Assembly: GCA_946699065.1 (NCBI GenBank)
Contig: CAMPDV010001443.1
Location: forward strand, 1-64,000
Source: Loxodes magnus
Taxonomy: Eukaryota > Ciliophora > Karyorelictea > Loxodida > Loxodidae
Length of the DNA: 64,000 bases
Reading direction: 5' to 3'
Positions 1 to 64,000 of this stretch are shown in pieces. The translations under genes were made by a program, and so were the position numbers. The notes below the pieces were generated by a model. It saw nothing but the letters and a program-made list of their open reading frames with translations. It had not been told where the DNA came from and searched no databases. Within the stretch, counting starts at the first letter, position 1, and each line of letters begins with the position of its first letter.

Positions 1-1724
1 GTCTAATCTACACTTCCCGATACGATGAACTCTGAATCACTGGATATAACCACAGCATATACATAATGTTTGTGACAACTCATGGTCTTACAGGTACCTG
101 TCTTGACGTCCCATAGTCTCACCGTCTAATCTACACTTCCCGATACGATGAACTATGAATCACTGGATATAGCCACAGATAATACACAACTAGTGTGACC
201 ACTCATGGTCTTACAGGTACCTGTCTTGACGTCCCATAGTCTCACCGTCTTATCTCTACTTCCCGATACGATGAACTCTGAATCACTGGATATAGCCACA
301 GATAATACACAACTAGTGTGACCACTCATGGTCTTACAGGTACCTGTCTTGACGTCCCATAGTCTCACCGTCTAATCTGCACTTCCCGATACGATGAACT
401 CGGAAACACTGGATATAGCCACAGCATATACATAACTAGTGTGACCACTCATGGTCTTACAGGTACCTGTCTTGACGTTCCATAGTCTCACCGTCTAATC
501 ATAACTTCCCGATACGATGAACTCTGAATCACTGGATATAGCCACAGATAATACATAATGTGTGTGACCACTCATGGTCTTACAGGTACCTGTCTTGAAG
601 TTCAATAGTCTCACCGTCTAATCATTACTTCACGATACGATGAACTCTGAATCACTGGATATAGCCACAGATAATACATAATGTGTGTGACCACTCATGG
701 TCTTACAGGTACCTGTCTTGACGTCCCATAGTCTCACCGTATAATCTTAACTTCCCGATACGATGAACTCTGAATCACTGGATATAGCCACAGATAATAC
801 ATAATGTGTGTGACCACTCATGGTCTTACAGGTACCTGTCTTGAAGTTCAATAGTCTCACCGTCTAATCTACACTTCCCGATACGATGAACTCTGAATCA
901 CTGGATATAGCCTCAGATAATACATAATGTGTGTGACCACTCATGGTCTTACAGGTACCTGTCTTGACGTCCCATAGTCTCACCGTCTAATCTACACTTC
1001 CCGATACGATGAACTCTGAATCACTGGATATAGCCACAGCATATACAGAACTAGTGTGAACACTCATGGTCTTACAGGTACCTGTCTTGACGTCCCATAG
1101 TCTCACCGTATTATCTACACTTCCCGATACGATGAACTCTGAATCACTGGATATAGCCACAGCATATACAGAACTAGTGTGAACACTCATGGTCTTACAG
1201 GTACCTGTCTTGACGTTCCATAGTCTCACCGTATAATCTTAACTTCCCGATACGATGAACTCTGAATCACTGGATATAGCCACAGATAATACATAATGTG
1301 TGTGACCACTCATGGTCTTACAGGTACCTGTCTTGAAGTTCAATAGTCTCACCGTCTAATCATTACTTCCCGATACGATGAACTCTGAATCACTGGATAT
1401 AGCCACAGATAATACATAATGTGTGTGACCACTCATGGTCTTACAGGTACCTGTCTTGACGTCCCATAGTCTCACCGTCTAATCTACACTTCCCGATACT
1501 ATGAACTCTGAATCACTGGATATAGCCACAGCATATACATAACTAGTGTGACCACTCATGGTCTTACAGGTACCTGTCTTGAAATCCCATAGTCTCACCG
1601 TCTAATCTACACTTCCCGATACGATGAACTCTGAATCACTGGATATAGCCACAGATAATACATAATGTGTGTGACCACTCATGGTCTTACAGGTACCTGT
1701 CTTGACGTCCCATAGTCTCACCGT

Positions 1725-2090
1725 CTAATCTACACTTCCCGATACGATGAACTCTGAATCACTGGATATAGCCACAGATAATACACAACTAGTGTGACCA
1801 CTCATGGTCTTACAGGTACCTGTCTTGACGTCCTTTAGTCTCACCGTCTTATCTCTACTTCCCGATACTATGAACTCTGAATCACTGGATATAGCCACAG
1901 CATATACAGAACTAGTGTGAACACTCATGGTCTTACAGGTACCTGTCTTGACGTCCCATAGTCTCACCGTATTATCTACACTTCCCGATACGATGAACTC
2001 TGAATCACTGGATATAGCCACAGATAATACATAATGTGTGTGACCACTCATGGTCTTACAGGTACCTGTCTTGAAGTTCAATAGTCTCAC
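1725..2090 (-). CDS. Open three-unit WD40 stretch with W5-to-K variant
   Basis: This is part of the array frame, open for three units between two TAG41 codons. From N to C the units are an LLNFK unit with HYV-LSV, a WDVK unit with GH changed to VH and SSV-YAV, and a unit in which the WD tryptophan is lysine (LKDVK) with SCV-LSV. The Lys replaces a tetrad Trp, which would weaken that blade. The first codon is a GTG directly after a stop, so it is not a credible gene start. It is unlikely to be a separate gene. Confidence 0.3.
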   Translation of the reverse strand: MRLLNFKTGTCKTMSGHTHYVLSVAISSDSEFIVSGSVDNTVRLWDVKTGTCKTMSVHTSSVYAVAISSDSEFIVSGSRDKTVRLKDVKTGTCKTMSGHTSCVLSVAISSDSEFIVSGSVD

Positions 2091-2831
2091 CGTCTAATCA
2101 TTACTTCACGATACGATGAACTCTGAATCACTGGATATAGCCACAGATAATACATAATGTGTGTGACCACTCATGGTCTTACAGGTACCTGTCTTGACGT
2201 CCCATAGTCTCACCGTTTTATCATTACTTCCCAATACGATGAACTCTGAATCACTGGATATAGCCACAGATAATACATAATGTGTGTGACCACTCATGGT
2301 CTTACAGGTACCTGTCTTGACGTCCCATAGTCTCACCGTATAATCTTAACTTCCCGATACGATGAACTCTGAATCACTGGATATAGCCACAGCATATACA
2401 GAACTAGTGTGAACACTCATGGTCTTACAGGTACCTGTCTTGACGTCCCATAGTCTCACCGTCTAATCTACACTTCCCGATACGATGAACTATGAATCAC
2501 TGGATATGGCCTCAGATAATACATAATGTGTGTGACCACTCATGGTCTTACAGGTACCTGTCTTGACGTCCCATAGTCTCACCGTCTAATCTACACTTCC
2601 CGATACGATGAACTCTGAATCACTGGATATAGCCACAGCATATACAGAACTAGTGTGACCACTCATGGTCTTACAGGTACCTGTCTTGACGTCCCATAGT
2701 CTCACCGTCTAATCATTACTTCACGATACGATGAACTCTGAATCACTGGATATAGCCACAGATAATACATAACTAGTGTGACCACTCATGGTCTTACAGG
2801 TACCTGTCTTGACGTCCCATAGTCTCACCGT

Positions 2832-3320
2832 CTAATCTACACTTCCCGATACGATGAACTCTGAATCACTGGATATAGCCACAGATAATACATAATGTGT
2901 GTGACCACTCATGGTCTTACAGGTACCTGTCTTGACGTCCCATAGTCTCACCGTCTTATCTCTACTTCCCGATACGATGAACTCTGAATCACTGGATATA
3001 ACCACAGCATATACATAATGTGTGTGACCACTCATGGTCTTACAGGTACCTGTCTTGACGTCCCATAGTCTCACCGTATAATCATAACTTCCCGATACGA
3101 TGAACTCTGAATCACTGGATATAGCCACAGCATATACATAATGTGTGTGACCACTCATGGTCTTACAGGTACCTGTCTTGAAGTTCAATAGTCTCACCGT
3201 TTTATCATTACTTCCCGATACGATGAACTCTGAATCACTGGATATAGCCACAGATAATACATAATGTGTGTGACCACTCATGGTCTTACAGGTACCTGTC
3301 TTGACGTCCCATAGGATCAC
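2832..3320 (-). CDS. Open four-unit WD40 stretch, joint longest in window
   Basis: At 162 codons this equals the longest open run in the window. It has four consecutive WD40 units, still short of the seven blades of a usual propeller. The first unit carries Ile instead of Arg at position 3 (ILWDVK), which I noticed nowhere else in the array. The second is an LLNFK unit, the third and fourth are WDVK units. Codons 39/41 run N/K, Y/Y, R/K and then V before TAG. It is bounded by TAG41 at both ends and has no ATG start. I treat it as a fragment of the array frame. Confidence 0.3.
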   Translation of the reverse strand: MILWDVKTGTCKTMSGHTHYVLSVAISSDSEFIVSGSNDKTVRLLNFKTGTCKTMSGHTHYVYAVAISSDSEFIVSGSYDYTVRLWDVKTGTCKTMSGHTHYVYAVVISSDSEFIVSGSRDKTVRLWDVKTGTCKTMSGHTHYVLSVAISSDSEFIVSGSVD

Positions 3321-5810
3321 CGTCTAATCTACACTTCCCGATACGATGAACTATGAATCACTGGATATAGCCACAGATAATACACAACTAGTGTGACCAC
3401 TCATGGTCTTACAGGTACCTGTCTTGACGTCCCATAGTCTCACCGTCTTATCTCTACTTCCCGATACGATGAACTATGAATCACTGGATATATCCACAGA
3501 TAATACATAATGTGTGTGACCACTCATGGTCTTAAAGGTACCTGTCTTGACGTCCCATAGTCTCACCGTATTATCTCCACTTCCCGATACGATGAACTCT
3601 GAATCACTGGATATAGCCTCAGATAATACATAATGTTTGTGACCACTCATGGTCTTACAGGTACCTGTCTTGACGTCCCATAGTCTCACCGTCTAATCTA
3701 CACTTCCCGATACGATGAACTCTGAATCACTGGATATAGCCACAGATAATACATAATGTGTGTGACCACTCATGGTCTTACAGGTACCTGTCTTGACGTC
3801 CCATAGTCTCACCGTTTTATCATTACTTCCCAATACGATGAACTCTGAATCACTGGATATAACCACAGCATATACATAATGTGTGTGACCACTCATGGTC
3901 TTACAGGTACCTGTCTTGACGTCCCATAGTCTCACCGTCTAATCTACACTTCCCGATACGATGAACTCTGAATCACTGGATATAGCCACAGATAATACAT
4001 AATGTGTGTGACCACTCATGGTCTTACAGGTACCTGTCTTGACGTCCCATAGTCTCACCGTATAATCTTAACTTCCCGATACGATGAACTCTGAATCACT
4101 GGATATAGCCACAGATAATACATAATGTGTGTGACCACTCATGGTCTTACAGGTACCTGTCTTGACGTCCCATAGTCTCACCGTCTTATCTCTACTTCCC
4201 GATACGATGAACTCTTAATCACTGGATATAACCACAGCATATACATAATGTGTGTGACCACTCATGGTCTTACAGGTACCTGTCTTGACGTCCCATAGTC
4301 TCACCGTCTAATCATTACTTCACGATACGATGAACTCTGAATCACTGGATATAGCCACAGCATATACATAACTAGTGTGACCACTCATGGTCTTACAGGT
4401 ACCTGTCTTGACGTTCCATAGTCTCACCGTCTAATCATAACTTCCCGATACGATGAACTCTGAATCACTGGATATAGCCACAGATAATACATAATGTGTG
4501 TGACCATTCATGGTCTTACAGGTACCTGTCTTGACGTTCCATAGTCTCACCGTCTTATCTCTACTTCCCGATACTATGAACTCTGAATCACTGGATATAG
4601 CCACAGCATATACAGAACTAGTGTGAACACTCATGGTCTTACAGGTACCTGTCTTGACGTTCCATAGTCTCACCGTATAATCTTAACTTCCCGATACGAT
4701 GAACTCTGAATCACTGGATATAGCCACAGATAATACATAATGTGTGTGACCACTCATGGTCTTACAGGTACCTGTCTTGAAGTTCAATAGTCTCACCTTC
4801 TAATCATTACTTCACGATACGATGAACTCTGAATCACTGGATATAGCCACAGATAATACATAATGTGTGTGACCACTCATGGTCTTACAGGTACCTGTCT
4901 TGACGTCCCATAGTCTCACCGTCTAATCTACACTTCCCGATACGATGAACTCTGAATCACTGGATATAGCCACAGATAATACATAATGTGTGTGACCACT
5001 CATGGTCTTACAGGTACCTGTCTTGACGTCCCATAGTCTCACCGTATAATCTTAACTTCCCGATACGATGAACTCTGAATCACTGGATATAGCCACAGAT
5101 AATACATAATGTGTGTGACCACTCATGGTCTTACAGGTACCTGTCTTGACGTCCCATAGTCTCACCGTCTAATCTACACTTCCCGATACGATGAACTCTG
5201 AATCACTGGATATGGCCTCAGATAATACATAATGTGTGTGACCACTCATGGTCTTACAGGTACCTGTCTTGACGTCCCATAGTCTCACCGTATAATCTTA
5301 ACTTCCCGATACGATGAACTCTGAATCACTGGATATAGCCACAGATAATACATAATGTGTGTGACCACTCATGGTCTTACAGGTACCTGTCTTGACGTCC
5401 CATAGTCTCACCGTCTAATCATTACTTCACGATACGATGAACTCTGAATCACTGGATATAGCCACAGCATATACAGAACTAGTGTGAACACTCATGGTCT
5501 TACAGGTACCTGTCTTGACGTCCCATAGTCTCACCGTCTAATCTACACTTCCCGATACGATGAACTCTGAATCACTGGATATAACCACAGCATATACATA
5601 ATGTGTGTGACCACTCATGGTCTTACAGGTACCTGTCTTGACGTCCCATAGTCTCACCGTCTAATCTACACTTCCCGATACGATGAACTCTGAATCACTG
5701 GATATAACCACAGATAATACATAATGTGTGTGACCACTCATGGTCTTACAGGTACCTGTCTTGACGTCCCATAGTCTCACCGTCTAATCTACACTTCCCG
5801 ATACGATGAA

Positions 5811-6149
5811 CTATGAATCACTGGATATAGCCACAGATAATACATAACTAGTGTGACCACTCATGGTCTTACAGGTACCTGTCTTGACGTCCCATAGTCT
5901 CACCGTATAATCTCTACTTCCCGATACGATGAACTCTGAATCACTGGATATAGCCACAGCATATACATAATGTGTGTGACCACTAATGGTCTTACAGGTA
6001 CCTGTCTTGACGTCCCATAGTCTCACCGTTTTATCATTACTTCCCAATACGATGAACTCTGAATCACTGGATATAGCCACAGATAATACACAACTAGTGT
6101 GACCACTCATGGTCTTACAGGTACCTGTCTTGACGTTCCATAGTCTCAC
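5811..6149 (-). CDS. Open three-unit WD40 stretch ending at a TAG in the SDS-E turn
   Basis: This holds three WD40 units: WNVK with SCV-LSV and an LGS variant of the SGS core, WDVK with HYV-YAV and Ile for Met at position 15, and WDVK with SYV-LSV. The frame closes at codon 32, where GAG (Glu) is TAG. The start is a GTG following TAG41. It is a piece of the array frame, not an independent gene. Confidence 0.28.
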   Translation of the reverse strand: MRLWNVKTGTCKTMSGHTSCVLSVAISSDSEFIVLGSNDKTVRLWDVKTGTCKTISGHTHYVYAVAISSDSEFIVSGSRDYTVRLWDVKTGTCKTMSGHTSYVLSVAISSDS

Positions 6150-8249
6150 CGTCTAATCTACACTTCCCGATACGATGAACTCTGAATCACTGGATATAGC
6201 CACAGCATATACAGAACTAGTGTGACCACTCATGGTCTTACAGGTACCTGTCTTGACGTCCCATAGTCTCACCGTATTATCTCCACTTCCCGATACGATG
6301 AACTCTGAATCACTGGATATAGCCACAGCATATACAGAACTAGTGTGAACACTCATGGTCTTACAGGTACCTGTCTTGACGTCCCATAGTCTCACCGTCT
6401 AATCTACACTTCCCGATACGATGAACTATGAATCACTGGATATGGCCTCAGATAATACATAATGTGTGTGACCACTCATGGTCTTACAGGTACCTGTCTT
6501 GACGTCCCATAGTCTCACCGTCTAATCTACACTTCCCGATACGATGAACTCTGAATCACTGGATATAGCCACAGCATATACAGAACTAGTGTGACCACTC
6601 ATGGTCTTACAGGTACCTGTCTTGACGTCCCATAGTCTCACCGTCTAATCATTACTTCACGATACGATGAACTCTGAATCACTGGATATAGCCACAGCAT
6701 ATACAGAACTAGTGTGAACACTCATGGTCTTACAGGTACCTGTCTTGACGTCCCATAGTCTCACCGTATAATCTCTACTTCCCGATACGATGAACTCTGA
6801 ATCACTGGATATAGCCTCAGATAATACATAATGTTTGTGACCACTCATGGTCTTACAGGTACCTGTCTTGACGTCCCATAGTCTCACCGTCTAATCTACA
6901 CTTCCCGATACGATGAACTATGAATCACTGGATATAGCCTCAGATAATACATAATGTGTGTGACCACTCATGGTCTTACAGGTACCTGTCTTGACGTCCC
7001 ATAGTCTCACCGTATTATCTACACTTCCCGATACGATGAACTCTGAATCACTGGATATAGCCTCAGATAATACATAATGTGTGTGACCACTCATGATCTT
7101 ACAGGTACCTGTCTTGACGTCCCATAGTCTCACCGTCTAATCTACACTTCCCGATACTATGAACTCTGAATCACTGGATATAGCCACAGCATATACATAA
7201 TGTGTGTGACCACTCATGGTCTTACAGGTACCTGTCTTGACGTCCCATAGTCTCACCGTCTAATCTACACTTCCCGATACGATGAACTCTGAATCACTGG
7301 ATATAGCCACAGCATATACAGAACTAGTGTGAACACTCATGGTCTTACAGGTACCTGTCTTGACGTCCCATAGTCTCACCGTCTTATCTCTACTTCCCGA
7401 TACGATGAACTATGAATCACTGGATATATCCACAGATAATACATAATGTGTGTGACCACTCATGGTCTTACAGGTACCTGTCTTGACGTCCCATAGTCTC
7501 ACCGTTTTATCATTACTTCACGATACGATGAACTCTGAATCACTGGATATAGCCACAGATAATACATAATGTGTGTGACCACTCATGGTCTTACAGGTAC
7601 CTGTCTTGACGTTCCATAGTCTCACCGTATTATCTCCACTTCCCGATACTATGAACTCTGAATCACTGGATATATACACAGATAATACATAATGTGTGTG
7701 ACCACTCATGGTCTTACAGGTACCTGTCTTGAAGTTCAATAGTCTCACCGTCTTATCTCTACTTCCCGATACGATGAACTCTTAATCACTGGATATAACC
7801 ACAGCATATACATAATGTGTGTGACCACTCATGGTCTTACAGGTACCTGTCTTGAAGTTCAATAGTCTCACCGTCTAATCATTACTTCACGATACGATGA
7901 ACTCTGAATCACTGGATATAGCCACAGATAATACATAATGTGTGTGACCACTCATGGTCTTACAGGTACCTGTCTTGACGTCCCATAGTCTCACCGTCTA
8001 ATCATTACTTCACGATACGATGAACTCTGAATCACTGGATATAGCCACAGCATATACATAACTAGTGTGACCACTCATGGTCTTACAGGTACCTGTCTTG
8101 AAATCCCATAGTCTCACCGTCTAATCTACACTTCCCGATACGATGAACTCTGAATCACTGGATATAGCCACAGATAATACACAACTAGTGTGAACACTCA
8201 TGGTCTTACAGGTACCTGTCTTGACGTCCCATAGTCTCACCGTATAATC

Positions 8250-8609
8250 TTAACTTCCCGATACGATGAACTCTGAATCACTGGATATAGCCACAGCATA
8301 TACATAATGTGTGTGACCACTCATGGTCTTACAGGTACCTGTCTTGAAGTTCAATAGTCTCACCGTTTTATCATTACTTCCCAATACGATGAACTCTGAA
8401 TCACTGGATATAGCCACAGATAATACATAATGTGTGTGACCACTCATGGTCTTACAGGTACCTGTCTTGAAGTTCAATAGTCTCACCGTTTTATCATTAC
8501 TTCCCAATACGATGAACTCTGAATCACTGGATATAGCCACAGATAATACATAATGTGTGTGACCACTCATGGTCTTACAGGTACCTGTCTTGACGTCCCA
8601 TAGTCTCAC
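8250..8609 (-). CDS. Open three-unit WD40 stretch with paired LLNFK units
   Basis: Three units read WDVK, LLNFK, LLNFK, all with HYV. The first two carry the LGS core variant with N39/K41. The stretch stops at TAA39 of the third unit. A copy with the same protein sequence lies 6,642 bp to the right at 14892-15251, inside the large segmental duplication. The LLNFK units lack the tetrad Trp (TGG to TTG). It is a fragment of the array frame. Confidence 0.28.
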   Translation of the reverse strand: MRLWDVKTGTCKTMSGHTHYVLSVAISSDSEFIVLGSNDKTVRLLNFKTGTCKTMSGHTHYVLSVAISSDSEFIVLGSNDKTVRLLNFKTGTCKTMSGHTHYVYAVAISSDSEFIVSGS

Positions 8610-9719
8610 CGTCTAATCTACACTTCCCGATACGATGAACTCTGAATCACTGGATATAGCCACAGCATATACAGAACTAGTGTGAACACTCATGGTCTTA
8701 CAGGTACCTGTCTTGACGTCCCATAGTCTCACCGTATTATCTCCACTTCCCGATACTATGAACTCTGAATCACTGGATATATCCACAGATAATACATAAT
8801 GTGTGTGACCACTCATGGTCTTACAGGTACCTGTCTTGACGTTCCATAGTCTCACCGTATAATCTTAACTTCCCGATACGATGAACTCTGAATCACTGGA
8901 TATAGCCACAGATAATACATAATGTGTGTGACCACTCATGGTCTTACAGGTACCTGTCTTGACGTCCCATAGTCTCACCGTCTAATCTACACTTCCCGAT
9001 ACGATGAACTCTGAATCACTGGATATAGCCACAGATAATACATAATGTGTGTGACCACTCATGGTCTTACAGGTACCTGTCTTGACGTCCCATAGTCTCA
9101 CCGTCTAATCATTACTTCACGATACGATGAACTCTGAATCACTGGATATAGCCACAGCATATACATAACTAGTGTGACCACTCATGGTCTTACAGGTACC
9201 TGTCTTGAAATCCCATAGTCTCACCGTCTAATCTACACTTCCCGATACGATGAACTCTGAATCACTGGATATAGCCACAGATAATACACAACTAGTGTGA
9301 CCACTCATGGTCTTACAGGTACCTGTCTTGACGTCCCATAGTCTCACCGTCTAATCTACACTTCCCGATACTATAAACTCTGAATCACTGGATATAGCCA
9401 CAGCATATACAGAACTAGTGTGAACACTCATGGTCTTACAGGTACCTGTCTTGACGTCCCATAGTCTCACCGTATAATCTTAACTTCCCGATACGATGAA
9501 CTCTGAATCACTGGATATAGCCACAGCATATACATAATGTGTGTGACCACTCATGGTCTTACAGGTACCTGTCTTGAAGTTCAATAGTCTCACCGTTTTA
9601 TCATTACTTCCCGATACGATGAACTCTGAATCACTGGATATAGCCACAGATAATACATAATGTGTGTGACCACTCATGGTCTTACAGGTACCTGTCTTGA
9701 CGTCCCATAGTCTCACCGT

Positions 9720-11660
9720 CTAATCTACACTTCCCGATACGATGAACTCTGAATCACTGGATATAGCCACAGCATATACAGAACTAGTGTGAACACTCAT
9801 GGTCTTACAGGTACCTGTCTTGACGTCCCATAGTCTCACCGTATTATCTCCACTTCCCGATACTATGAACTCTGAATCACTGGATATATCCACAGATAAT
9901 ACATAATGTGTGTGACCACTCATGGTCTTACAGGTACCTGTCTTGACGTCCCATAGTCTCACCGTCTAATCTACACTTCCCGATACGATGAACTCTGAAT
10001 CACTGGATATAGCCTCAGATAATACATAATGTGTGTGACCACTCATGGTCTTACAGGTACCTGTCTTGACGTCCCATAGTCTCACCGTCTAATCTACACT
10101 TCCCGATACGATGAACTCTGAATCACTGGATATAGCCACAGCATATACAGAACTAGTGTGAACACTCATGGTCTTACAGGTACCTGTCTTGACGTCCCAT
10201 AGTCTCACCGTCTAATCTACACTTCCCGATACTATGAACTCTGAATCACTGGATATAGCCACAGCATATACAGAACTAGTGTGAACACTCATGGTCTTAC
10301 AGGTACCTGTCTTGACGTTCCATAGTCTCACCGTATAATCTTAACTTCCCGATACGATGAACTCTGAATCACTGGATATAGCCACAGATAATACATAATG
10401 TGTGTGACCACTCATGGTCTTACAGGTACCTGTCTTGAAGTTCAATAGTCTCACCGTCTAATCATTACTTCACGATACGATGAACTCTGAATCACTGGAT
10501 ATAGCCACAGATAATACATAATGTGTGTGACCACTCATGGTCTTACAGGTACCTGTCTTGACGTCCCATAGTCTCACCGTCTAATCATTACTTCACGATA
10601 CGATGAACTCTGAATCACTGGATATAGCCACAGATAATACATAATGTGTGTGACCACTCATGGTCTTACAGGTACCTGTCTTGACGTCCCATAGTCTCAC
10701 CGTCTAATCTACACTTCCCGATACGATGAACTCTGAATCACTGGATATAGCCACAGCATATACAGAACTAGTGTGAACACTCATGGTCTTACAGGTACCT
10801 GTCTTGACGTCCCATAGTCTCACCGTATTATCTCCACTTCCCGATACTATGAACTCTGAATCACTGGATATATCCACAGATAATACATAATGTGTGTGAC
10901 CACTCATGGTCTTACAGGTACCTGTCTTGACGTCCCATAGTCTCACCGTCTAATCTACACTTCCCGATACGATGAACTCTGAATCACTGGATATAGCCTC
11001 AGATAATACATAATGTGTGTGACCACTCATGGTCTTACAGGTACCTGTCTTGACGTCCCATAGTCTCACCGTCTAATCTACACTTCCCGATACGATGAAC
11101 TCTGAATCACTGGATATAGCCACAGCATATACAGAACTAGTGTGAACACTCATGGTCTTACAGGTACCTGTCTTGACGTCCCATAGTCTCACCGTCTAAT
11201 CTACACTTCCCGATACTATGAACTCTGAATCACTGGATATAGCCACAGCATATACAGAACTAGTGTGAACACTCATGGTCTTACAGGTACCTGTCTTGAC
11301 GTTCCATAGTCTCACCGTATAATCTTAACTTCCCGATACGATGAACTCTGAATCACTGGATATAGCCACAGATAATACATAATGTGTGTGACCACTCATG
11401 GTCTTACAGGTACCTGTCTTGAAGTTCAATAGTCTCACCGTCTAATCATTACTTCACGATACGATGAACTCTGAATCACTGGATATAGCCACAGATAATA
11501 CATAATGTGTGTGACCACTCATGGTCTTACAGGTACCTGTCTTGACGTCCCATAGTCTCACCGTCTAATCATTACTTCACGATACGATGAACTCTGAATC
11601 ACTGGATATAGCCACAGATAATACATAATGTGTGTGACCACTCATGGTCTTACAGGTACC
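9720..11660 (-). repeat. 8-unit (984-bp) tandem duplication
   Basis: The eight units at about 9,720-10,690 are repeated at about 10,704-11,660, with the same order of variants (VH/SSV, LSE, TAG and TGA units). They differ at the last unit (WDVK against WDFK). The right segmental copy at 16.4-17.3 kb has only one such block, so this is either a later gain here or a loss there. Confidence 0.8.
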
Positions 11661-13601
11661 TGTCTTGAAATCCCATAGTCTCACCGTCTAATCTACACTT
11701 CCCGATACGATGAACTCTGAATCACTGGATATAGCCACAGATAATACACAACTAGTGTGACCACTCATGGTCTTACAGGTACCTGTCTTGACGTCCCATA
11801 GTCTCACCGTATTATCTGCACTTCCCGATACGATGAACTCTGAATCACTGGATATAGCCACAGATAATACACAACTAGTGTGACCACTCATGGTCTTACA
11901 GGTACCTGTCTTGACGTCCCATAGTCTCACCGTCTAATCTACACTTCCCGATACGATGAACTCTGAATCACTGGATATAGCCACAGCATATACATAATGT
12001 GTGTGACCACTCATGGTCTTACAGGTACCTGTCTTGACGTCCCATAGTCTCACCGTCTTATCTCTACTTCCCGATACGATGAACTCTTAATCACTGGATA
12101 TAACCACAGCATATACATAATGTGTGTGACCACTCATGGTCTTACAGGTACCTGTCTTGACGTCCCATAGTCTCACCGTCTAATCTACACTTCCCGATAC
12201 GATGAACTCTGAATCACTGGATATAGCCACAGCATATACAGAACTAGTGTGACCACTCATGGTCTTACAGGTACCTGTCTTGACGTTCCATAGTCTCACC
12301 GTCTAATCATAACTTCCCGATACGATGAACTCTGAATCACTGGATATAGCCACAGATAATACATAATGTGTGTGACCACTCATGGTCTTACAGGTACCTG
12401 TCTTGAAATCCCATAGTCTCACCGTATAATCTTAACTTCCCGATACGATGAACTCTGAATCACTGGATATAGCCACAGAATATACATAACTAGTGTGACC
12501 ACTCATGGTCTTACAGGTACCTGTCTTGAAATCCCATAGTCTCACCGTCTAATCTACACTTCCCGATACGATGAACTCTGAATCACTGGATATAGCCACA
12601 GATAATACACAACTAGTGTGACCACTCATGGTCTTACAGGTACCTGTCTTGACGTTCCATAGTCTCACCGTATAATCTTAACTTCCCGATACGATGAACT
12701 CTGAATCACTGGATATAGCCACAGATAATACATAATGTGTGTGACCACTCATGGTCTTACAGGTACCTGTCTTGAAGTTCAATAGTCTCACCGTCTAATC
12801 ATTACTTCACGATACGATGAACTCTGAATCACTGGATATAGCCACAGATAATACTTAATGTGTGTGACCACTCATGGTCTTACAGGTACCTGTCTTGACG
12901 TCCCATAGTCTCACCGTCTAATCATTACTTCACGATACGATGAACTCTGAATCACTGGATATATCCACAGATAATACATAATGTGTGTGACCACTCATGG
13001 TCTTACAGGTACCTGTCTTGAAATCCCATAGTCTCACCGTCTAATCTACACTTCCCGATACGATGAACTCTGAATCACTGGATATAGCCACAGATAATAC
13101 ACAACTAGTGTGACCACTCATGGTCTTACAGGTACCTGTCTTGACGTCCCATAGTCTCACCGTCTAATCTACACTTCCCGATACTATGAACTATGAATCA
13201 CTGGATATGGCCTCAGATAATACATAATGTGTGTGACCACTCATGGTCTTACAGGTACCTGTCTTGACGTCCCATAGTCTCACCGTCTAATCTACACTTC
13301 CCGATACGATGAACTCTGAATCACTGGATATAGCCACAGATAATACACAACTAGTGTGACCACTCATGGTCTTACAGGTACCTGTCTTGACGTCCCATAG
13401 TCTCACCGTCTTATCTCTACTTCCCGATACTATGAACTATGAATCACTGGATATGGCCTCAGATAATACATAATGTGTGTGACCACTCATGGTCTTACAG
13501 GTACCTGTCTTGACGTCCCATAGTCTCACCGTCTAATCTACACTTCCCGATACGATGAACTCTGAATCACTGGATATAGCCACAGATAATACACAACTAG
13601 T

Positions 13602-18938: not shown

Positions 18939-19079
18939 CACCGTCTAATCTACACTTCCCGATACTATGAACTCTGAATCACTGGATATATCCACAGATA
19001 ATACATAATGTGTGTGACCACTCATGGTCTTACAGGTACCTGTCTTGACGTCCCATAGTCTCACCGTCTAATCTACACT

Positions 19080-21890: not shown

Positions 21891-21905
21891 CACCGTCTAA
21901 TCTAC

Positions 21906-24353: not shown

Positions 24354-24365
24354 CGTATAATCTTA

Positions 24366-29575: not shown

Positions 29576-29689
29576 ATAATACACAACTAGTGTGACCACT
29601 CATGGTCTTACAGGTACCTGTCTTGACGTTCCATAGTCTCACCGTATAATCTTAACTTCCCGATACGATGAACTCTGAATCACTGGATA

Positions 29690-37447: not shown

Positions 37448-37517
37448 ATAATACATAATGTGTGTGACCACTCATGGTCTTACAGGTACCTGTCTTGACG
37501 TCCCATAGTCTCACCGT

Positions 37518-51708: not shown

Positions 51709-52822
51709 GCCTCAGATAATACATAATGTGTGTGACCACTCATGGTCTTACAGGTACCTGTCTTGACGTCCCATAGTCTCACCGTCTAATCTACACTTCC
51801 CGATACGATGAACTATGAATCACTGGATATAACCACAGCATATACATAATGTGTGTGACCACTCATGGTCTTACAGGTACCTGTCTTGACGTCCCATAGT
51901 CTCACCGTCTAATCATTACTTCCCAATACGATGAACTCTGAATCACTGGATATATCCACAGATAATACATAATGTGTGTGACCACTCATGGTCTTACAGG
52001 TACCTGTCTTGACGTCCCATAGTCTCACCGTCTAATCTACACTTCCCGATACGATGAACTATGAATCACTGGATATATCCACAGATAATACATAATGTGT
52101 GTGACCACTCATGGTCTTACAGGTACCTGTCTTGACGTTCCATAGTCTCACCGTTTTATCATTACTTCCCAATACGATGAACTCTGAATCACTGGATATA
52201 GCCACAGATAATACATAATGTGTGTGACCACTCATGGTCTTACAGGTACCTGTCTTGACGTCCCATAGTCTCACCGTCTAATCTACACTTCCCGATACGA
52301 TGAACTCTGAATCACTGGATATAGCCACAGCAGATACATAATGAGTGTGACCACTCATGGTCTTACAGGTACCTGTCTTGACGTCCCATAGTCTCACCGT
52401 CTAATCTACACTTCCCGATACGATGAACTCTGAATCACTGGATATAGCCACAGCAGATACATAATGAGTGTGACCACTCATGGTCTTACAGGTACCTGTC
52501 TTGACGTCCCATAGTCTCACCGTCTAATCTCTACTTCCCGATACGATGAACTCTGAATCACTGGATATAGCCTCAGATAATACATAATGTGTGTGACCAC
52601 TCATGGTCTTACAGGTACCTGTCTTGACGTCCCATAGTCTCACCGTCTAATCTACACTTCCCGATACGATGAACTCTGAATCACTGGATATAGCCACAGC
52701 AGATACATAATGAGTGTGACCACTCATGGTCTTACAGGTACCTGTCTTGACGTCCCATAGTCTCACCGTCTAATCTCTACTTCCCGATACGATGAACTCT
52801 GAATCACTGGATATAGCCACAG
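51361..52822 (-). repeat. ~1.46-kb block duplicated at 53,821-55,282, with a divergent patch
   Basis: The offset is again 2,460 bp. The blocks match by eye except at 51,939-52,080 against 54,399-54,540, where several codons differ at once (V26 class, WNVK, K41, Glu32). A short multi-site difference inside matching flanks is the signature of conversion. Confidence 0.7.
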
Positions 52823-54368
52823 CAGATACATAATGTGTGTGACCACTCATGGTCTTACAGGTACCTGTCTTGACGTCCCATAGTCTCACCGTCTAATCTA
52901 CACTTCCCGATACGATGAACTATGAATCACTGGATATAACCACAGCATATACATAATGTGTGTGACCACTCATGGTCTTACAGGTACCTGTCTTGACGTC
53001 CCATAGTCTCACCGTCTAATCATTACTTCCCAATACGATGAACTCTGAATCACTGGATATATCCACAGATAATACATAATGTGTGTGACCACTCATGGTC
53101 TTACAGGTACCTGTCTTGACGTCCCATAGTCTCACCGTCTAATCTACACTTCCCGATACGATGAACTATGAATCACTGGATATATCCACAGATAATACAT
53201 AATGTGTGTGACCACTCATGGTCTTACAGGTACCTGTCTTGACGTTCCATAGTCTCACCGTTTTATCATTACTTCCCAATACGATGAACTCTGAATCACT
53301 GGATATAGCCACAGATAATACATAATGTGTGTGACCACTCATGGTCTTACAGGTACCTGTCTTGACGTCCCATAGTCTCACCGTCTAATCTACACTTCCC
53401 GATACGATGAACTCTGAATCACTGGATATAGCCACAGCAGATACATAATGAGTGTGACCACTCATGGTCTTACAGGTACCTGTCTTGACGTCCCATAGTC
53501 TCACCGTCTAATCTACACTTCCCGATACGATGAACTCTGAATCACTGGATATAGCCACAGCAGATACATAATGAGTGTGACCACTCATGGTCTTACAGGT
53601 ACCTGTCTTGACGTCCCATAGTCTCACCGTCTAATCTACACTTCCCGATACGATGAACTCTGAATCACTGGATATAGCCTCAGATAATACATAATGTGTG
53701 TGACCACTCATGGTCTTACAGGTACCTGTCTTGACGTCCCATAGTCTCACCGTCTAATCTACACTTCCCGATACGATGAACTCTGAATCACTGGATATAG
53801 CCACAGCAGATACATAATGAGTGTGACCACTCATGGTCTTACAGGTACCTGTCTTGACGTCCCATAGTCTCACCGTCTAATCATTACTTCCCAATACGAT
53901 GAACTCTGAATCACTGGATATATCCACAGATAATACATAATGTGTGTGACCACTCATGGTCTTACAGGTACCTGTCTTGACGTCCCATAGTCTCACCGTC
54001 TAATCTACACTTCCCGATACGATGAACTATGAATCACTGGATATATCCACAGATAATACATAATGTGTGTGACCACTCATGGTCTTACAGGTACCTGTCT
54101 TGACGTCCCATAGTCTCACCGTCTAATCTACACTTCCCGATACGATGAACTCTGAATCACTGGATATAGCCTCAGATAATACATAATGTGTGTGACCACT
54201 CATGGTCTTACAGGTACCTGTCTTGACGTCCCATAGTCTCACCGTCTAATCTACACTTCCCGATACGATGAACTATGAATCACTGGATATAACCACAGCA
54301 TATACATAATGTGTGTGACCACTCATGGTCTTACAGGTACCTGTCTTGACGTCCCATAGTCTCACCGT

Positions 54369-54734
54369 CTAATCATTACTTCCCAATACGATGAACTCGG
54401 AATCACTGGATATAGCCACAGATAATACATAATGTGTGTGACCACTCATGGTCTTACAGGTACCTGTCTTGACGTTCCATAGTCTCACCGTCTTATCATT
54501 ACTTCCCGATACGATGAACTCTGAATCACTGGATATAACCACAGATAATACATAATGTGTGTGACCACTCATGGTCTTACAGGTACCTGTCTTGACGTTC
54601 CATAGTCTCACCGTTTTATCATTACTTCCCAATACGATGAACTCTGAATCACTGGATATAGCCACAGATAATACATAATGTGTGTGACCACTCATGGTCT
54701 TACAGGTACCTGTCTTGACGTCCCATAGTCTCAC
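54369..54734 (-). CDS. Open three-unit WD40 stretch isolated in the TAG-rich region
   Basis: The units are WDVK, WNVK and WNVK, all HYV-LSV. The first and third have the LGS core variant, and codons 39/41 read N/K, N/K and then N before TAG41. It coincides with a divergent patch between two otherwise matching blocks (51.4-52.8 and 53.8-55.3 kb), which suggests local conversion from another part of the array. Confidence 0.28.
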   Translation of the reverse strand: MRLWDVKTGTCKTMSGHTHYVLSVAISSDSEFIVLGSNDKTVRLWNVKTGTCKTMSGHTHYVLSVVISSDSEFIVSGSNDKTVRLWNVKTGTCKTMSGHTHYVLSVAISSDSEFIVLGSND

Positions 54735-57700
54735 CGTCTAATCTACACTTCCCGATACGATGAACTCTGAATCACTGGATATAGCCACAGCAGATACATA
54801 ATGAGTGTGACCACTCATGGTCTTACAGGTACCTGTCTTGACGTCCCATAGTCTCACCGTCTAATCTACACTTCCCGATACGATGAACTCTGAATCACTG
54901 GATATAGCCACAGCAGATACATAATGAGTGTGACCACTCATGGTCTTACAGGTACCTGTCTTGACGTCCCATAGTCTCACCGTCTAATCTCTACTTCCCG
55001 ATACGATGAACTCTGAATCACTGGATATAGCCTCAGATAATACATAATGTGTGTGACCACTCATGGTCTTACAGGTACCTGTCTTGACGTCCCATAGTCT
55101 CACCGTCTAATCTACACTTCCCGATACGATGAACTCTGAATCACTGGATATAGCCACAGCAGATACATAATGAGTGTGACCACTCATGGTCTTACAGGTA
55201 CCTGTCTTGACGTCCCATAGTCTCACCGTCTAATCTCTACTTCCCGATACGATGAACTCTGAATCACTGGATATAGCCACAGATAATACATAATGTGTGT
55301 GACCACTCATGGTCTTACAGGTACCTGTCTTGACGTCCCATAGTCTCACCGTCTAATCTACACTTCCCGATACTATGAACTCTGAATCACTGGATATAGC
55401 CACAGCATATACATAATGTGTGTGACCACTCATGGTCTTACAGGTACCTGTCTTGACGTCCCATAGTCTCACCGTCTAATCTACACTTCCCGATACGATG
55501 AACTATGAATCACTGGATATATCCACAGATAATACATAATGTGTGTGACCACTCATGGTCTTACAGGTACCTGTCTTGACGTCCCATAGTCTCACCGTCT
55601 AATCTACACTTCCCGATACGATGAACTCTGAATCACTGGATATAGCCACAGATAATACATAATGTGTGTGACCACTCATGGTCTTACAGGTACCTGTCTT
55701 GACGTCCCATAGTCTCACCGTCTAATCTACACTTCCCGATACTATGAACTCTGAATCACTGGATATAGCCTCAGATAATACATAATGTGTGTGACCACTC
55801 ATGGTCTTACAGGTACCTGTCTTGACGTCCCATAGTCTCACCGTCTAATCTACACTTCCCGATACTATGAACTCTGAATCACTGGATATAGCCACAGCAT
55901 ATACATAATGTGTGTGACCACTCATGGTCTTACAGGTACCTGTCTTGACGTCCCATAGTCTCACCGTCTAATCTACACTTCCCGATACGATGAACTATGA
56001 ATCACTGGATATATCCACAGATAATACATAATGTGTGTGACCACTCATGGTCTTACAGGTACCTGTCTTGACGTCCCATAGTCTCACCGTCTAATCTACA
56101 CTTCCCGATACGATGAACTCTGAATCACTGGATATAGCCTCAGATAATACATAATGTGTGTGACCACTCATGGTCTTACAGGTACCTGTCTTGACGTCCC
56201 ATAGTCTCACCGTCTAATCTACACTTCCCGATACGATGAACTCTGAATCACTGGATATATCCACAGATAATACATAATGTGTGTGAACACTCATGGTCTT
56301 ACAGGTACCTGTCTTGACGTCCCATAGTCTCACCGTCTAATCTACACTTCCCGATACGATGAACTATGAATCACTGGATATAGCCTCAGATAATACATAA
56401 TGTGTGTGACCACTCATGGTCTTACAGGTACCTGTCTTGACGTCCCATAGTCTCACCGTCTAATCTACACTTCCCGATACTATGAACTCTGAATCACTGG
56501 ATATAGCCACAGATAATACATAATGTGTGTGACCACTCATGGTCTTACAGGTACCTGTCTTGAAGTTCAATAGTCTCACCGTCTAATCATTACTTCACGA
56601 TACGATGAACTCTGAATCACTGGATATAGCCACAGATAATACATAATGTGTGTGACCACTCATGGTCTTACAGGTACCTGTCTTGACGTCCCATAGTCTC
56701 ACCGTCTAATCTACACTTCCCGATACGATGAACTATGAATCACTGGATATAACCACAGCATATACATAATGTGTGTGACCACTCATGGTCTTACAGGTAC
56801 CTGTCTTGACGTCCCATAGTCTCACCGTCTAATCTACACTTCCCGATACGATGAACTATGAATCACTGGATATAACCACAGCATATACATAATGTGTGTG
56901 ACCACTCATGGTCTTACAGGTACCTGTCTTGACGTCCCATAGTCTCACCGTCTAATCTACACTTCCCGATACGATGAACTCTGAATCACTGGATATAGCC
57001 ACAGATAATACACAACTAGTGTGACCACTCATGGTCTTACAGGTACCTGTCTTGACGTCCCATAGTCTCACCGTCTAATCTACACTTCCCGATACGATGA
57101 ACTCTGAATCACTGGATATAGCCACAGCATATACATAACTAGTGTGACCACTCATGGTCTTACAGGTACCTGTCTTGACGTCCCATAGTCTCACCGTCTA
57201 ATCTACACTTCCCGATACGATGAACTATGAATCACTGGATATATCCACAGATAATACATAATGTGTGTGACCACTCATGGTCTTACAGGTACCTGTCTTG
57301 ACGTCCCATAGTCTCACCGTCTAATCTACACTTCCCGATACGATGAACTCTGAATCACTGGATATAGCCTCAGATAATACATAATGTGTGTGACCACTCA
57401 TGGTCTTACAGGTACCTGTCTTGACGTCCCATAGTCTCACCGTCTAATCTACACTTCCCGATACGATGAACTCTGAATCACTGGATATAGCCACAGATAA
57501 TACACAACTAGTGTGACCACTCATGGTCTTACAGGTACCTGTCTTGACGTCCCATAGTCTCACCGTCTAATCTACACTTCCCGATACGATGAACTCTGAA
57601 TCACTGGATATAGCCTCAGATAATACACAACTAGTGTGACCACTCATGGTCTTACAGGTACCTGTCTTGACGTCCCATAGTCTCACCGTCTAATCTACAC

Positions 57701-58602
57701 TTCCCGATACTATGAACTCTGAATCACTGGATATAGCCACAGATAATACATAATGTGTGTGACCACTCATGGTCTTACAGGTACCTGTCTTGAAGTTCAA
57801 TAGTCTCACCGTCTAATCATTACTTCACGATACGATGAACTCTGAATCACTGGATATAGCCACAGATAATACATAATGTGTGTGACCACTCATGGTCTTA
57901 CAGGTACCTGTCTTGACGTCCCATAGTCTCACCGTCTAATCTACACTTCCCGATACGATGAACTATGAATCACTGGATATAACCACAGCATATACATAAT
58001 GTGTGTGACCACTCATGGTCTTACAGGTACCTGTCTTGACGTCCCATAGTCTCACCGTCTAATCTACACTTCCCGATACGATGAACTATGAATCACTGGA
58101 TATAACCACAGCATATACATAATGTGTGTGACCACTCATGGTCTTACAGGTACCTGTCTTGACGTCCCATAGTCTCACCGTCTAATCTACACTTCCCGAT
58201 ACGATGAACTCTGAATCACTGGATATAGCCACAGATAATACACAACTAGTGTGACCACTCATGGTCTTACAGGTACCTGTCTTGACGTCCCATAGTCTCA
58301 CCGTCTAATCTACACTTCCCGATACGATGAACTCTGAATCACTGGATATAGCCTCAGATAATACACAACTAGTGTGACCACTCATGGTCTTACAGGTACC
58401 TGTCTTGACGTCCCATAGTCTCACCGTCTAATCTACACTTCCCGATACTATGAACTCTGAATCACTGGATATAGCCACAGATAATACATAATGTGTGTGA
58501 CCACTCATGGTCTTACAGGTACCTGTCTTGACGTCCCATAGTCTCACCGTCTAATCTACACTTCCCGATACGATGAACTCTGAATCACTGGATATAGCCA
58601 CA

Positions 58603-58617
58603 GCATATATAGCCACA
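58603..58617 (-). other. 15-bp in-frame insertion in one unit
   Basis: The normal GATATAGCCACAGATAATAC context has 15 extra bases, making a partial repeat of the local sequence. On the minus strand this adds five residues, so the segment reads SVAIYAVAISS. It looks like a join between the LSV and YAV variants of the same region and keeps the frame. Confidence 0.85.
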
Positions 58618-58810
58618 GATAATACATAATGTGTGTGACCACTCATGGTCTTACAGGTACCTGTCTTGACGTCCCATAGTCTCACCGTCTAATCTACACT
58701 TCCCGATACTATGAACTCTGAATCACTGGATATAGCCACAGATAATACATAATGTGTGTGACCACTCATGGTCTTACAGGTACCTGTCTTGACGTCCCAT
58801 AGTCTCACCG

Positions 58811-58883
58811 TCTAATCTATACACTTCCCGATACGATGAACTCATGAATCACTGGATATACTTCCACAGATATATACATAATG
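58811..58883 (-). other. Single unit with four small insertions (+2, +1, +2, +1)
   Basis: Compared with the consensus this unit has extra bases near 58,819 (+2), 58,844 (+1), 58,861 (+2) and 58,872 (+1). In minus-strand order they pair as +1 then +2, twice, so the frame is left and regained twice and the net gain is 6 bp. The displaced segments read as non-WD40 sequence with a TGA. No other unit shows such clustering. Confidence 0.8.
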
Positions 58884-60464
58884 TGTGTGACCACTCATGG
58901 TCTTACAGGTACCTGTCTTGACGTCCCATAGTCTCACCGTCTAATCTACACTTCCCGATACGATGAACTCTGAATCACTGGATATAGCCTCAGATAATAC
59001 ACAACTAGTGTGACCACTCATGGTCTTACAGGTACCTGTCTTGACGTCCCATAGTCTCACCGTCTAATCTACACTTCCCGATACTATGAACTCTGAATCA
59101 CTGGATATAGCCACAGATAATACATAATGTGTGTGACCACTCATGGTCTTACAGGTACCTGTCTTGAAGTTCAATAGTCTCACCGTCTAATCATTACTTC
59201 ACGATACGATGAACTCTGAATCACTGGATATAGCCACAGATAATACATAATGTGTGTGACCACTCATGGTCTTACAGGTACCTGTCTTGACGTCCCATAG
59301 TCTCACCGTCTAATCTACACTTCCCGATACGATGAACTATGAATCACTGGATATAACCACAGCATATACATAATGTGTGTGACCACTCATGGTCTTACAG
59401 GTACCTGTCTTGACGTCCCATAGTCTCACCGTCTAATCTACACTTCCCGATACGATGAACTATGAATCACTGGATATAACCACAGCATATACATAATGTG
59501 TGTGACCACTCATGGTCTTACAGGTACCTGTCTTGACGTCCCATAGTCTCACCGTCTAATCTACACTTCCCGATACGATGAACTCTGAATCACTGGATAT
59601 AGCCACAGATAATACACAACTAGTGTGACCACTCATGGTCTTACAGGTACCTGTCTTGACGTCCCATAGTCTCACCGTCTAATCTACACTTCCCGATACG
59701 ATGAACTCTGAATCACTGGATATAGCCTCAGATAATACACAACTAGTGTGACCACTCATGGTCTTACAGGTACCTGTCTTGACGTCCCATAGTCTCACCG
59801 TCTAATCTACACTTCCCGATACTATGAACTCTGAATCACTGGATATAGCCACAGATAATACATAATGTGTGTGACCACTCATGGTCTTACAGGTACCTGT
59901 CTTGACGTCCCATAGTCTCACCGTCTAATCTACACTTCCCGATACGATGAACTCTGAATCACTGGATATAGCCACAGATAATACATAATGTGTGTGACCA
60001 CTCATGGTCTTACAGGTACCTGTCTTGACGTCCCATAGTCTCACCGTCTAATCTACACTTCCCGATACGATGAACTCTGAATCACTGGATATAGCCACAG
60101 CATATACATAACTAGTGTGACCACTCATGGTCTTACAGGTACCTGTCTTGACGTCCCATAGTCTCACCGTATAATCTACACTTCCCGATACGATGAACTC
60201 TGAATCACTGGATATAGCCACAGATAATACACAACTAGTGTGACCACTCATGGTCTTACAGGTACCTGTCTTGACGTCCCATAGTCTCACCGTCTAATCT
60301 ACACTTCCCGATACGATGAACTCTGAATCACTGGATATAGCCTCAGATAATACACAACTAGTGTGACCACTCATGGTCTTACAGGTACCTGTCTTGACGT
60401 CCCATAGTCTCACCGTCTAATCTACACTTCCCGATACTATGAACTCTGAATCACTGGATATAGC

Positions 60465-60480
60465 CACAGATATACATAAT
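60465..60480 (-). other. 1-bp deletion breaking the array register
   Basis: CAGATATACAT replaces CAGATAATACAT, a loss of one A/T pair in the unit. Units right of this point are shifted by one base relative to those on the left, which accounts for the 860-bp instead of 861-bp spacing between landmarks at 60,290 and 61,150. Confidence 0.85.
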
Positions 60481-60784
60481 GTGTGTGACCACTCATGGTC
60501 TTACAGGTACCTGTCTTGACGTCCCATAGTCTCACCGTCTAATCATTACTTCACGATACGATGAACTCTGAATCACTGGATATAGCCACAGATAATACAT
60601 AATGTGTGTGACCACTCATGGTCTTACAGGTACCTGTCTTGACGTCCCATAGTCTCACCGTCTAATCTACACTTCCCGATACGATGAACTATGAATCACT
60701 GGATATAACCACAGCATATACATAATGTGTGTGACCACTCATGGTCTTACAGGTACCTGTCTTGACGTCCCATAGTCTCACCGT

Positions 60785-61150: not shown

Positions 61151-61153
61151 CGT

Positions 61154-61642
61154 CTAATCTACACTTCCCGATACGATGAACTCTGAATCACTGGATATAG
61201 CCTCAGATAATACATAATGTATGTGACCACTCATGGTCTTACAGGTACCTGTCTTGACGTCCCATAGTCTCACCGTATAATCTCTACTTCCCGATACGAT
61301 GAACTCTGAATCACTGGATATAGCCTCAGATAATACATAATGTGTGTGACCACTCATGGTCTTACAGGTACCTGTCTTGACGTCCCATAGTCTCACCGTA
61401 TAATCTCTACTTCCCGATACGATGAACTCTGAATCACTGGATATAGCCACAGCATATACAGAACTAGTGTGAACACTCATGGTCTTACAGGTACCTGTCT
61501 TGACGTCCCATAGTCTCACCGTATTATCTCCACTTCCCGATACTATGAACTCTGAATCACTGGATATAACCACAGCATATACATAATGTGTGTGACCACT
61601 CATGGTCTTACAGGTACCTGTCTTGACGTCCCATAGTCTCAC
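61154..61642 (-). CDS. Open four-unit WD40 stretch, joint longest in window
   Basis: It has 162 codons and four WDVK units: HYV-YAV-V G39/N41, VH/SSV-YAV R39/Y41, HYV-LSE R39/Y41, and a unit with Ile for Thr at 19 (GHIHYV) and V39 before TAG41. The start is a GTG after TAG41. The 3' neighbour on the minus strand is the open stretch ending at 60785; one TAG separates them, so together they span seven units with a single stop between. Confidence 0.3.
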   Translation of the reverse strand: MRLWDVKTGTCKTMSGHTHYVYAVVISSDSEFIVSGSGDNTVRLWDVKTGTCKTMSVHTSSVYAVAISSDSEFIVSGSRDYTVRLWDVKTGTCKTMSGHTHYVLSEAISSDSEFIVSGSRDYTVRLWDVKTGTCKTMSGHIHYVLSEAISSDSEFIVSGSVD

Positions 61643-61650
61643 CGTCTAAT

Positions 61651-62037
61651 CTACACTACAGGTACCTGTCTTGACGATACGTCTAATCTACATGATAACT
61701 CTGAATCACTGGATATAGCCACAGATAATACACAACTAGTGTGAACACTCATGGTCTTACAGGTACCTGTCTTGACGTCCCATAGTCTCACCGTATAATC
61801 TCTACTTCCCGATACGATGAACTCTGAATCACTGGATATAGCCTCAGATAATACATAATGTGTGTGACCACTCATGGTCTTACAGGTACCTGTCTTGACG
61901 TCCCATAGTCTCACCGTATAATCTCTACTTCCCGATACGATGAACTCTGAATCACTGGATATAGCCACAGATAATACATAATGTGTGTGACCACTCATGG
62001 TCTTACAGGTACCTGTCTTGACGTCCCATAGTCTCAC
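61651..62037 (-). CDS. Open WD40 stretch that runs into a scrambled unit
   Basis: Three WD40 units (HYV-LSV R39/Y41, HYV-LSE R39/Y41, VH/SCV-LSV) are followed at the C-terminal end by about 16 residues unlike the repeat, beginning after SSDSE. The change marks the rearranged junction near 61,655-61,695, where the frame leaves the WD40 register. It is a fragment of the array frame broken by a rearrangement. Confidence 0.3.
   Translation of the reverse strand: MRLWDVKTGTCKTMSGHTHYVLSVAISSDSEFIVSGSRDYTVRLWDVKTGTCKTMSGHTHYVLSEAISSDSEFIVSGSRDYTVRLWDVKTGTCKTMSVHTSCVLSVAISSDSELSCRLDVSSRQVPVV
61652..61695 (-). other. Scrambled unit with net 26-bp gain
   Basis: Between the CTAATCTACAC and AACTCTGAATC landmarks the usual 14 bp are replaced by 40 bp, made of pieces from elsewhere in the unit (TACAGGTACCTGTCTTGACG, ATAC, then GTCTAATCTACA). 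The gain is 26 bp, so the frame shifts. It looks like a short template switch between units, or an assembly join. Confidence 0.85.
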
Positions 62038-62040
62038 CGT

Positions 62041-63639
62041 CTAATCTACACTTCCCGATACGATGAACTCTGAATCACTGGATATAGCCACAGATAATAC
62101 ACAACTAGTGTGACCACTCATGGTCTTACAGGTACCTGTCTTGACGTTCCATAGTCTCACCGTTTTATCATTACTTCCCAATACGATGAACTCTGAATCA
62201 CTGGATATAGCCACAGCATATACAGAACTAGTGTGAACACTCATGGTCTTACAGGTACCTGTCTTGACGTCCCATAGTCTCACCGTCTAATCTACACTTC
62301 CCGATACGATGAACTATGAATCACTGGATATAGCCACAGCATATACAGAACTAGTGTGAACACTCATGGTCTTACAGGTACCTGTCTTGACGTCCCATAG
62401 TCTCACCGTATAATCTCTACTTCCCGATACGATGAACTCTGAATCACTGGATATAGCCTCAGATAATACATAATGTGTGTGACCACTCATGGTCTTACAG
62501 GTACCTGTCTTGACGTCCCATAGTCTCACCGTCTAATCTACACTTCCCGATACGATGAACTCTGAATCACTGGATATAGCCACAGCATATACAGAACTAG
62601 TGTGAACACTCATGGTCTTACAGGTACCTGTCTTGACGTCCCATAGTCTCACCGTATTATCTCCACTTCCCGATACGATGAACTATGAATCACTGGATAT
62701 AACCACAGCATATACATAATGTGTGTGACCACTCATGGTCTTACAGGTACCTGTCTTGACGTCCCATAGTCTCACCGTCTAATCATAACTTCCCGATACG
62801 ATGAACTCGGAATCACTGGATATAGCCACAGATAATACATAATGTGTGTGACCACTCATGGTCTTACAGGTACCTGTCTTGACGTCCCATAGTCTCACCG
62901 TCTAATCTACACTTCCCGATACGATGAACTCTGAATCACTGGATATAGCCACAGATAATACACAACTAGTGTGACCACTCATGGTCTTACAGGTACCTGT
63001 CTTGACGTTCCATAGTCTCACCGTTTTATCATTACTTCCCAATACGATGAACTCTGAATCACTGGATATAGCCACAGCATATACAGAACTAGTGTGAACA
63101 CTCATGGTCTTACAGGTACCTGTCTTGACGTCCCATAGTCTCACCGTCTAATCTACACTTCCCGATACGATGAACTATGAATCACTGGATATAGCCACAG
63201 CATATACAGAACTAGTGTGAACACTCATGGTCTTACAGGTACCTGTCTTGACGTCCCATAGTCTCACCGTATAATCTCTACTTCCCGATACGATGAACTC
63301 TGAATCACTGGATATAGCCTCAGATAATACATAATGTGTGTGACCACTCATGGTCTTACAGGTACCTGTCTTGACGTCCCATAGTCTCACCGTCTAATCT
63401 ACACTTCCCGATACGATGAACTCTGAATCACTGGATATAGCCACAGCATATACAGAACTAGTGTGAACACTCATGGTCTTACAGGTACCTGTCTTGACGT
63501 CCCATAGTCTCACCGTATTATCTCCACTTCCCGATACGATGAACTATGAATCACTGGATATAACCACAGCATATACATAATGTGTGTGACCACTCATGGT
63601 CTTACAGGTACCTGTCTTGACGTCCCATAGTCTCACCGT
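62041..63639 (-). repeat. 7-unit (861-bp) tandem repeat, partial second copy
   Basis: Six units at 62,041-62,778 recur at 62,902-63,639 with an offset of seven units. The seventh unit of the first copy (62,779-62,901, with TCC-GAG codons) has no equivalent after the second. Seven units would equal one classic seven-bladed propeller. Confidence 0.8.
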
Positions 63640-64000
63640 CTAATCTACACTTCCCGATACGATGAACTCTGAATCACTGGATATAGCCACAGATAATACA
63701 CAACTAGTGTGACCACTCATGGTCTTACAGGTACCTGTCTTGACGTTCCATAGTCTCACCGTTTTATCATTACTTCCCAATACGATGAACTCTGAATCAC
63801 TGGATATAGCCACAGATAATACATAATGTGTGTGACCACTCATGGTCTTACAGGTACCTGTCTTGACGTCCCATAGTCTCACCGTCTAATCTACACTTCC
63901 CGATACGATGAACTATGAATCACTGGATATAACCACAGCATATACATAATGTGTGTGACCACTCATGGTCTTACAGGTACCTGTCTTGACGTCCCATAGT

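Follow-up and report, generated by a model that had tools for sequence, protein, structure and literature searches.

A 64-kb tandem array of WD40-derived 123-bp units that is probably a satellite born from a gene

DNA that is filled from end to end with copies of a single protein repeat raises the question of whether it still encodes a protein. The window analyzed here, by which we mean the whole stretch of 64,000 nucleotides, had been described in preliminary form as an uninterrupted, WD40-coding array of near-identical 123-bp units, whose translation would exceed 21,000 residues. That description offered two readings of the locus, which was either a satellite born from a WD40 gene or a section of a repeat gene that ranks among the largest. 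We find an array in which the WD40 frame is broken, the alleles carry no sign of constraint at the protein level, variants have been mixed between units, and blocks of units have been copied. We consider it likely that the window lies within a large satellite array whose founding sequence was the repeat-bearing region of a rapidly diversifying WD40 gene and which is now non-coding and homogenized by recombination between units. The array would at present be inert or structural DNA in a eukaryote.

The array and its unit are as first reported. Tandem Repeats Finder returns a period of 123 over positions 1-61657 (501.1 copies, 93% matches) and over 61697-64000 (18.7 copies, 92% matches), and the window matches itself at 93.0% when shifted by 123 bases. 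The units are arranged head to tail, number about 520 (64000/123), and reach both ends of the window; the WD40 frame is read on the minus strand, a detail absent from the preliminary description. Between plus 58418 and 117, 474 consecutive units lie in exact register with zero register-shifting indels in 58 kb; these comprise 152 distinct types, with a mean identity to the consensus of 95.7% and a minimum of 89.4%. The term "uninterrupted" is nearly right in that the array spans the window, but there are four register shifts, two of which alter the frame. At these places the anchor spacings are 138, 129, 122, and 149 instead of 123, as located by a base-by-base screen of plus 58419-64000 only (Table 1). 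All four cluster within 3.1 kb (58586-61720), and the irregularities at 58.6-61.7 kb could stem from slippage or template switching in a local burst, or from an insufficiently polished assembly. In the Rfam comparison of the window, none of the families attains its gathering score. A perfect 12-base palindrome, ACAGGTACCTGT, occurs 509 times, or about once per unit (for example at 89-100); since the neighboring codons are about as invariant, we do not claim a special role for it.

Table 1. Positions of the array, its longest frames, copied blocks, and irregular units in the window.
Feature	Position	Strand	Basis
123-bp tandem array, WD40-derived, ~520 units	1..64000	-	repeat period, self-match, Pfam
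474 units in exact register; 152 distinct; 385 with in-frame stop	117..58418	-	unit and codon counts
Longest standard-code frame, 163 aa, four units	2832..3323	-	frame scan
Second standard-code frame of equal length, 163 aa, four units	61154..61645	-	frame scan
20-unit block, 2460 bp, exact copy of 14016-16475	7374..9833	-	block comparison
20-unit block, 2460 bp, exact copy of 7374-9833	14016..16475	-	block comparison
20-unit block, 2460 bp, exact copy of adjoining 49194-51653	46734..49193	-	block comparison
20-unit block, 2460 bp, exact copy of adjoining 46734-49193	49194..51653	-	block comparison
Irregular unit, net +15 bases	58586..58630	.	anchor spacing, sequence
Irregular unit, several small indels, net +6 bases	58796..58895	.	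anchor spacing, sequence
Irregular unit, net -1 base, frame shifted	60451..60495	.	anchor spacing, sequence
Scrambled junction, net +26 bases, frame shifted	61636..61720	.	anchor spacing, sequence

The consensus unit is 41 codons long, presumably one residue fewer than the HET-E repeat, and the majority state of its codon 38 is a stop. When an 819-aa piece is read with translation table 6, the Pfam WD40 family (PF00400) matches it in 19 stretches with 581.1 bits against a cut-off of 27. The same piece matches 46 further families and, among the best 25 of the 47, nearly all are WD40 or beta-propeller families. A stop-free piece of 163 aa also matches WD40 proteins of solved structure, with 2ymu as the best. 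The unit is therefore a WD40 repeat by sequence ancestry, as evidenced by the PF00400 match above the curated cut-off.

Relatives of one 163-aa piece were sought in three collections. Three distinct peptide patterns reveal none in the viral contigs, and prokaryote genomes contain 39 pattern-matching stretches, nine of which encode relatives at 34-47% identity; six of these nine loci are cyanobacterial. In plasmids, 308 records hold relatives, all below 60% identity (best 50.6%). A regular-expression scan of the WD40 spacing in the nine loci, to which we give little weight, returns 42 residues as the commonest value (four times in L001 and three in L004), with a single instance in each of L003, L006, and L007 and no instance in the remaining four loci. 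At the nucleotide level, an exact 35-base pattern of the array has 0 matches in viral contigs and an exact 23-base pattern has 0 in prokaryote genome contigs, and blastn of plus 1-2500 (2,500 of the 64,000 bases) against phages and plasmids gives no match. The collections searched were thus of viral, prokaryote, phage, and plasmid sequences; by elimination, and from the size of the array, the host is probably a eukaryote.

The description of the array as WD40-coding is not borne out by its reading frame. An in-frame stop is present in 385 of the 474 in-register units (81%), with 271 units carrying one, 110 carrying two, and 4 carrying three. These 503 stops comprise 398 TAG, 58 TAA, and 47 TGA codons and are confined to six codons of the unit (18, 28, 29, 34, 36, and 38), codon 38 being TAG in 326 units. 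The window lacks any stop-to-stop frame of at least 300 aa under the standard code, and the translation of more than 21,000 residues is thus nonexistent under that code. The longest frame is 163 aa and occurs twice; its four repeats fall short of the roughly six or more that make one propeller. A giant open gene in the standard code is accordingly rejected. Stop-free units make up 43 of the 152 distinct types and are not grouped along the array (157 runs against 145.5 +/- 6.6 in shuffles), where they occur singly 68 times, as pairs 9 times, and as a triple once. Structural residues are damaged as well: codon 2 no longer encodes the WD-motif Trp in 41 of 474 units, nor codon 14 the Gly of Gly-His in 50, and just 36 units are at once stop-free and in line with a simple list of canonical residues.

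These stops would be of no consequence if they were read as amino acids, in a ciliate-like code or one in which all three triplets are sense, and the array would then belong to a giant functional WD40 gene with a protein of about 20,000 residues. We regard this as highly improbable. It would be in keeping with the 474 units that pass without a register shift and with the dominance of the commonest stop, TAG, at codon 38, and reading TAA and TAG as Gln does open the WD40 frame for 3771 and 3566 aa. However, the 47 TGA codons would also be needed as sense, and open frames are cheap in a tandem array. Plus frame 0 proceeds without TAG for 20,194 codons, and minus frame 0 proceeds without TAA for 19,973, though over most of their length neither is the WD40 frame. 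Roughly one unit in ten has lost structural residues, and there is no synonymous excess under tables 1, 6, or 15 or in the non-surface codons, as detailed below. The specific assignment of TAG and TAA to Gln (table 6) is likewise unsupported, given the presence of TGA, the opening of non-WD40 frames, and the lack of a synonymous excess. With three kinds of stop at six codons, the loss of the Trp, and variants that are as expected without selection, we find no support for membership in one of the largest repeat genes. The same data also call for caution in annotation: within a tandem array, the absence of a single stop triplet is enough to keep a frame open over tens of kilobases, and such a frame can pass for a giant gene under a relaxed code.

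Protein-level constraint was assessed by tallying, over the 123 sites of the unit, every distinct variant base a single time against the majority base, which gives 58 alleles, and by comparing these with random placement under the same mutation spectrum. The alleles comprise 12 synonymous (13.3 expected), 38 missense (40.6 expected), 6 stop-creating (3.0 expected; P=0.04), and 2 stop-losing changes (1.1 expected). Setting a sense codon at codon 38 leaves the result unchanged, with 6 to 8 new stops and P values of 0.006 to 0.04. The outcome is the same for rare as for common alleles under tables 1, 6, and 15, with synonymous changes not in excess. A functional gene with a variable surface predicts a synonymous excess in its core. 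When the seven surface codons described below are removed, 9 of the 37 alleles in the remaining 34 codons are synonymous against 9.1 expected, and the core shows no such excess. With 58 alleles only strong constraint is excludable, the missense to synonymous ratio being confined by hand arithmetic to about half to twice neutral, and the lack of detectable purifying selection on the protein is to be read within that limit. On the WD40 strand, the commonest change among the 58 alleles is G-to-T (14, against 6 C-to-A), a strand-biased spectrum (117-58418).

Three considerations run against the satellite reading. The first is that the lack of any register-shifting indel over so many units is gene-like. 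The scarcity of indels may be better explained by a small number of independent mutations, since 58 alleles cover the divergence and only a handful of indels would be expected. The second is that eleven codons are invariant in 474 of 474 units. His 15 and Asp 37, which we take to be residues needed by WD40 folds, are included, but the other nine include residues without a structural role, and general homogeneity explains the eleven equally well. The third is that 58 alleles leave room for weak constraint. On balance, the array, its stops, and its neutral-looking variants support the proposal of a satellite born from a WD40 gene.

The variation that the units do carry is concentrated in codons 4, 16, 17, 18, 20, 36, and 38, with 21 of the 58 alleles in these 7 of 41 codons (P=0.0004). 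These seven also include 4 of the 6 codons at which three or more states are common (P=0.005). Aligned through the Trp, codons 16, 17, 18, 20, 36, 38, and 4 correspond to positions 10, 11, 12, 14, 30, 32, and 39 of the HET-D/E repeat, in a comparison that was drawn with the codon table already known and whose register is approximate, the unit being one residue shorter. Those seven positions are the ones chosen for high dN/dS (PMC12222747), in a study that reuses the repeat definition of Hu et al., who put the repeat Trp at position 37 (PMC5587647). Near-identical repeats that vary at diversifying sites thus point, post hoc and in approximate register, to a HET-E-type parent. The parent would have been a WD40 gene of the high-internal-identity kind, in which mainly surface residues differ.

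The closest comparison is with the HET-D/HET-E (HNWD/NWD) NACHT-WD40 receptors of Podospora anserina, which also have near-identical repeats homogenized by exchange (PMC12222747, PMC4986451) and, in the approximate register, variation in the same few codons (PMC12222747). Functional alleles of those genes usually carry 11 highly conserved repeats (PMC12222747, PMC4986451), whereas the array has about 520 units, mostly with stops. Unlike the receptors, the array has a 41-residue unit and no N-terminal domain within the window. Highly repetitive WD40 proteins more generally, a set of 305 that is half bacterial and more than one-third fungal and lacks animal and plant members, share with the array a high internal repeat identity, variable hotspot residues, and young duplications (PMC5587647). 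They are proteins, whereas in the array the frame is broken and constraint at the protein level is not detected.

The concentration of diversity in codons that match HET-E-type recognition sites also bears on a reading in which the array is a silent archive, whose hundreds of decaying WD40 units pass sequence, through gene conversion, to a recognition receptor expressed from another locus. The satellite would then double as a reservoir of cassettes for a gene of immunity or self-recognition. The units clearly exchange sequence, and the stop-free types noted above could serve as donors in such a scheme. We nevertheless consider it very unlikely. With stops in 81% of the units, and the commonest of them inside recognition codon 38, donation would mostly break the recipient; the stop-free units are also ungrouped, and a recipient gene is not seen in the window.

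Exchange between units is evident from the 22 common variable sites. All four combinations, each required in at least two distinct unit types, are found for 160 of the 231 site pairs, and the share of positive pairs is 36% for sites no more than 9 bp apart and 77% beyond. Positive pairs are rarer at close range and commoner further apart, which places exchange breakpoints inside units. The order of the units is mostly non-periodic, and no single dominant unit lag that would mark a higher-order repeat is observed, only scattered block copies. Blocks of six or more units recur as exact copies in nine cases, at distances of 8 to 54 units, the longest being 20 units (2460 bp). The window has sequence properties of satellite DNA, namely a long, near-identical, non-coding array with both exchange and block amplification.

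Exact block pairs, two of 20 units and one of 19, may also be a product of the assembly, in which case the array is real and its length or order has been distorted by collapsed or duplicated blocks or by poor polishing. The confinement of the four irregular units to 3.1 kb agrees with this. Simple duplication of one stretch would hardly yield 152 distinct units in a mostly non-periodic order, though, and the array would stay stop-rich at any exact length. We consider such distortion unlikely.

A gene turned satellite would have arisen as follows. The repeat region of a WD40 gene of high internal identity would cease to be required for a protein. It would then be expanded, by the unequal exchange and gene conversion that also shuffle the units of such genes, to at least about 520 units with copied blocks as long as 20 units, and those blocks would carry stops and structural damage with them as they spread. 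The exchange mechanism itself is suggested by the mixing of variants and the block copies. Satellites derived from genes or transposons are known in which a piece of functional sequence has likewise become the monomer of a long array. The examples covered come from RNA genes or retrotransposons; the present monomer is instead a single protein repeat unit, which was presumably tandem already within a gene. No WD40-derived satellite is reported in the titles or abstract openings covered, a coverage that takes in few subscription journals.

If the satellite reading holds, the window is a clear case of a protein repeat gene becoming satellite DNA, and it suggests that the exchange that diversifies receptor repeats also carries stops through an array that selection no longer maintains. 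Read codon by codon, the array appears to record both stages, the diversity of the surface first and the loss of constraint next, which makes the passage from gene to satellite testable.

The two parts of the in-register array differ in the stops that they carry. The left part (117-38738) has 218 TAG, 58 TAA, and 44 TGA codons, that is, all 58 TAA and 44 of the 47 TGA stops, and its mean pairwise identity, computed like that of the right part in blocks of up to 40 units, is 92.6-93.6%. The right part (plus 38739-58418) is almost purely TAG, with 180 TAG, 0 TAA, and 3 TGA codons and a mean pairwise identity of 94.3-95.3%. The two parts are probably sub-families of different age or origin, and their contrast fits block amplification of different sub-families.
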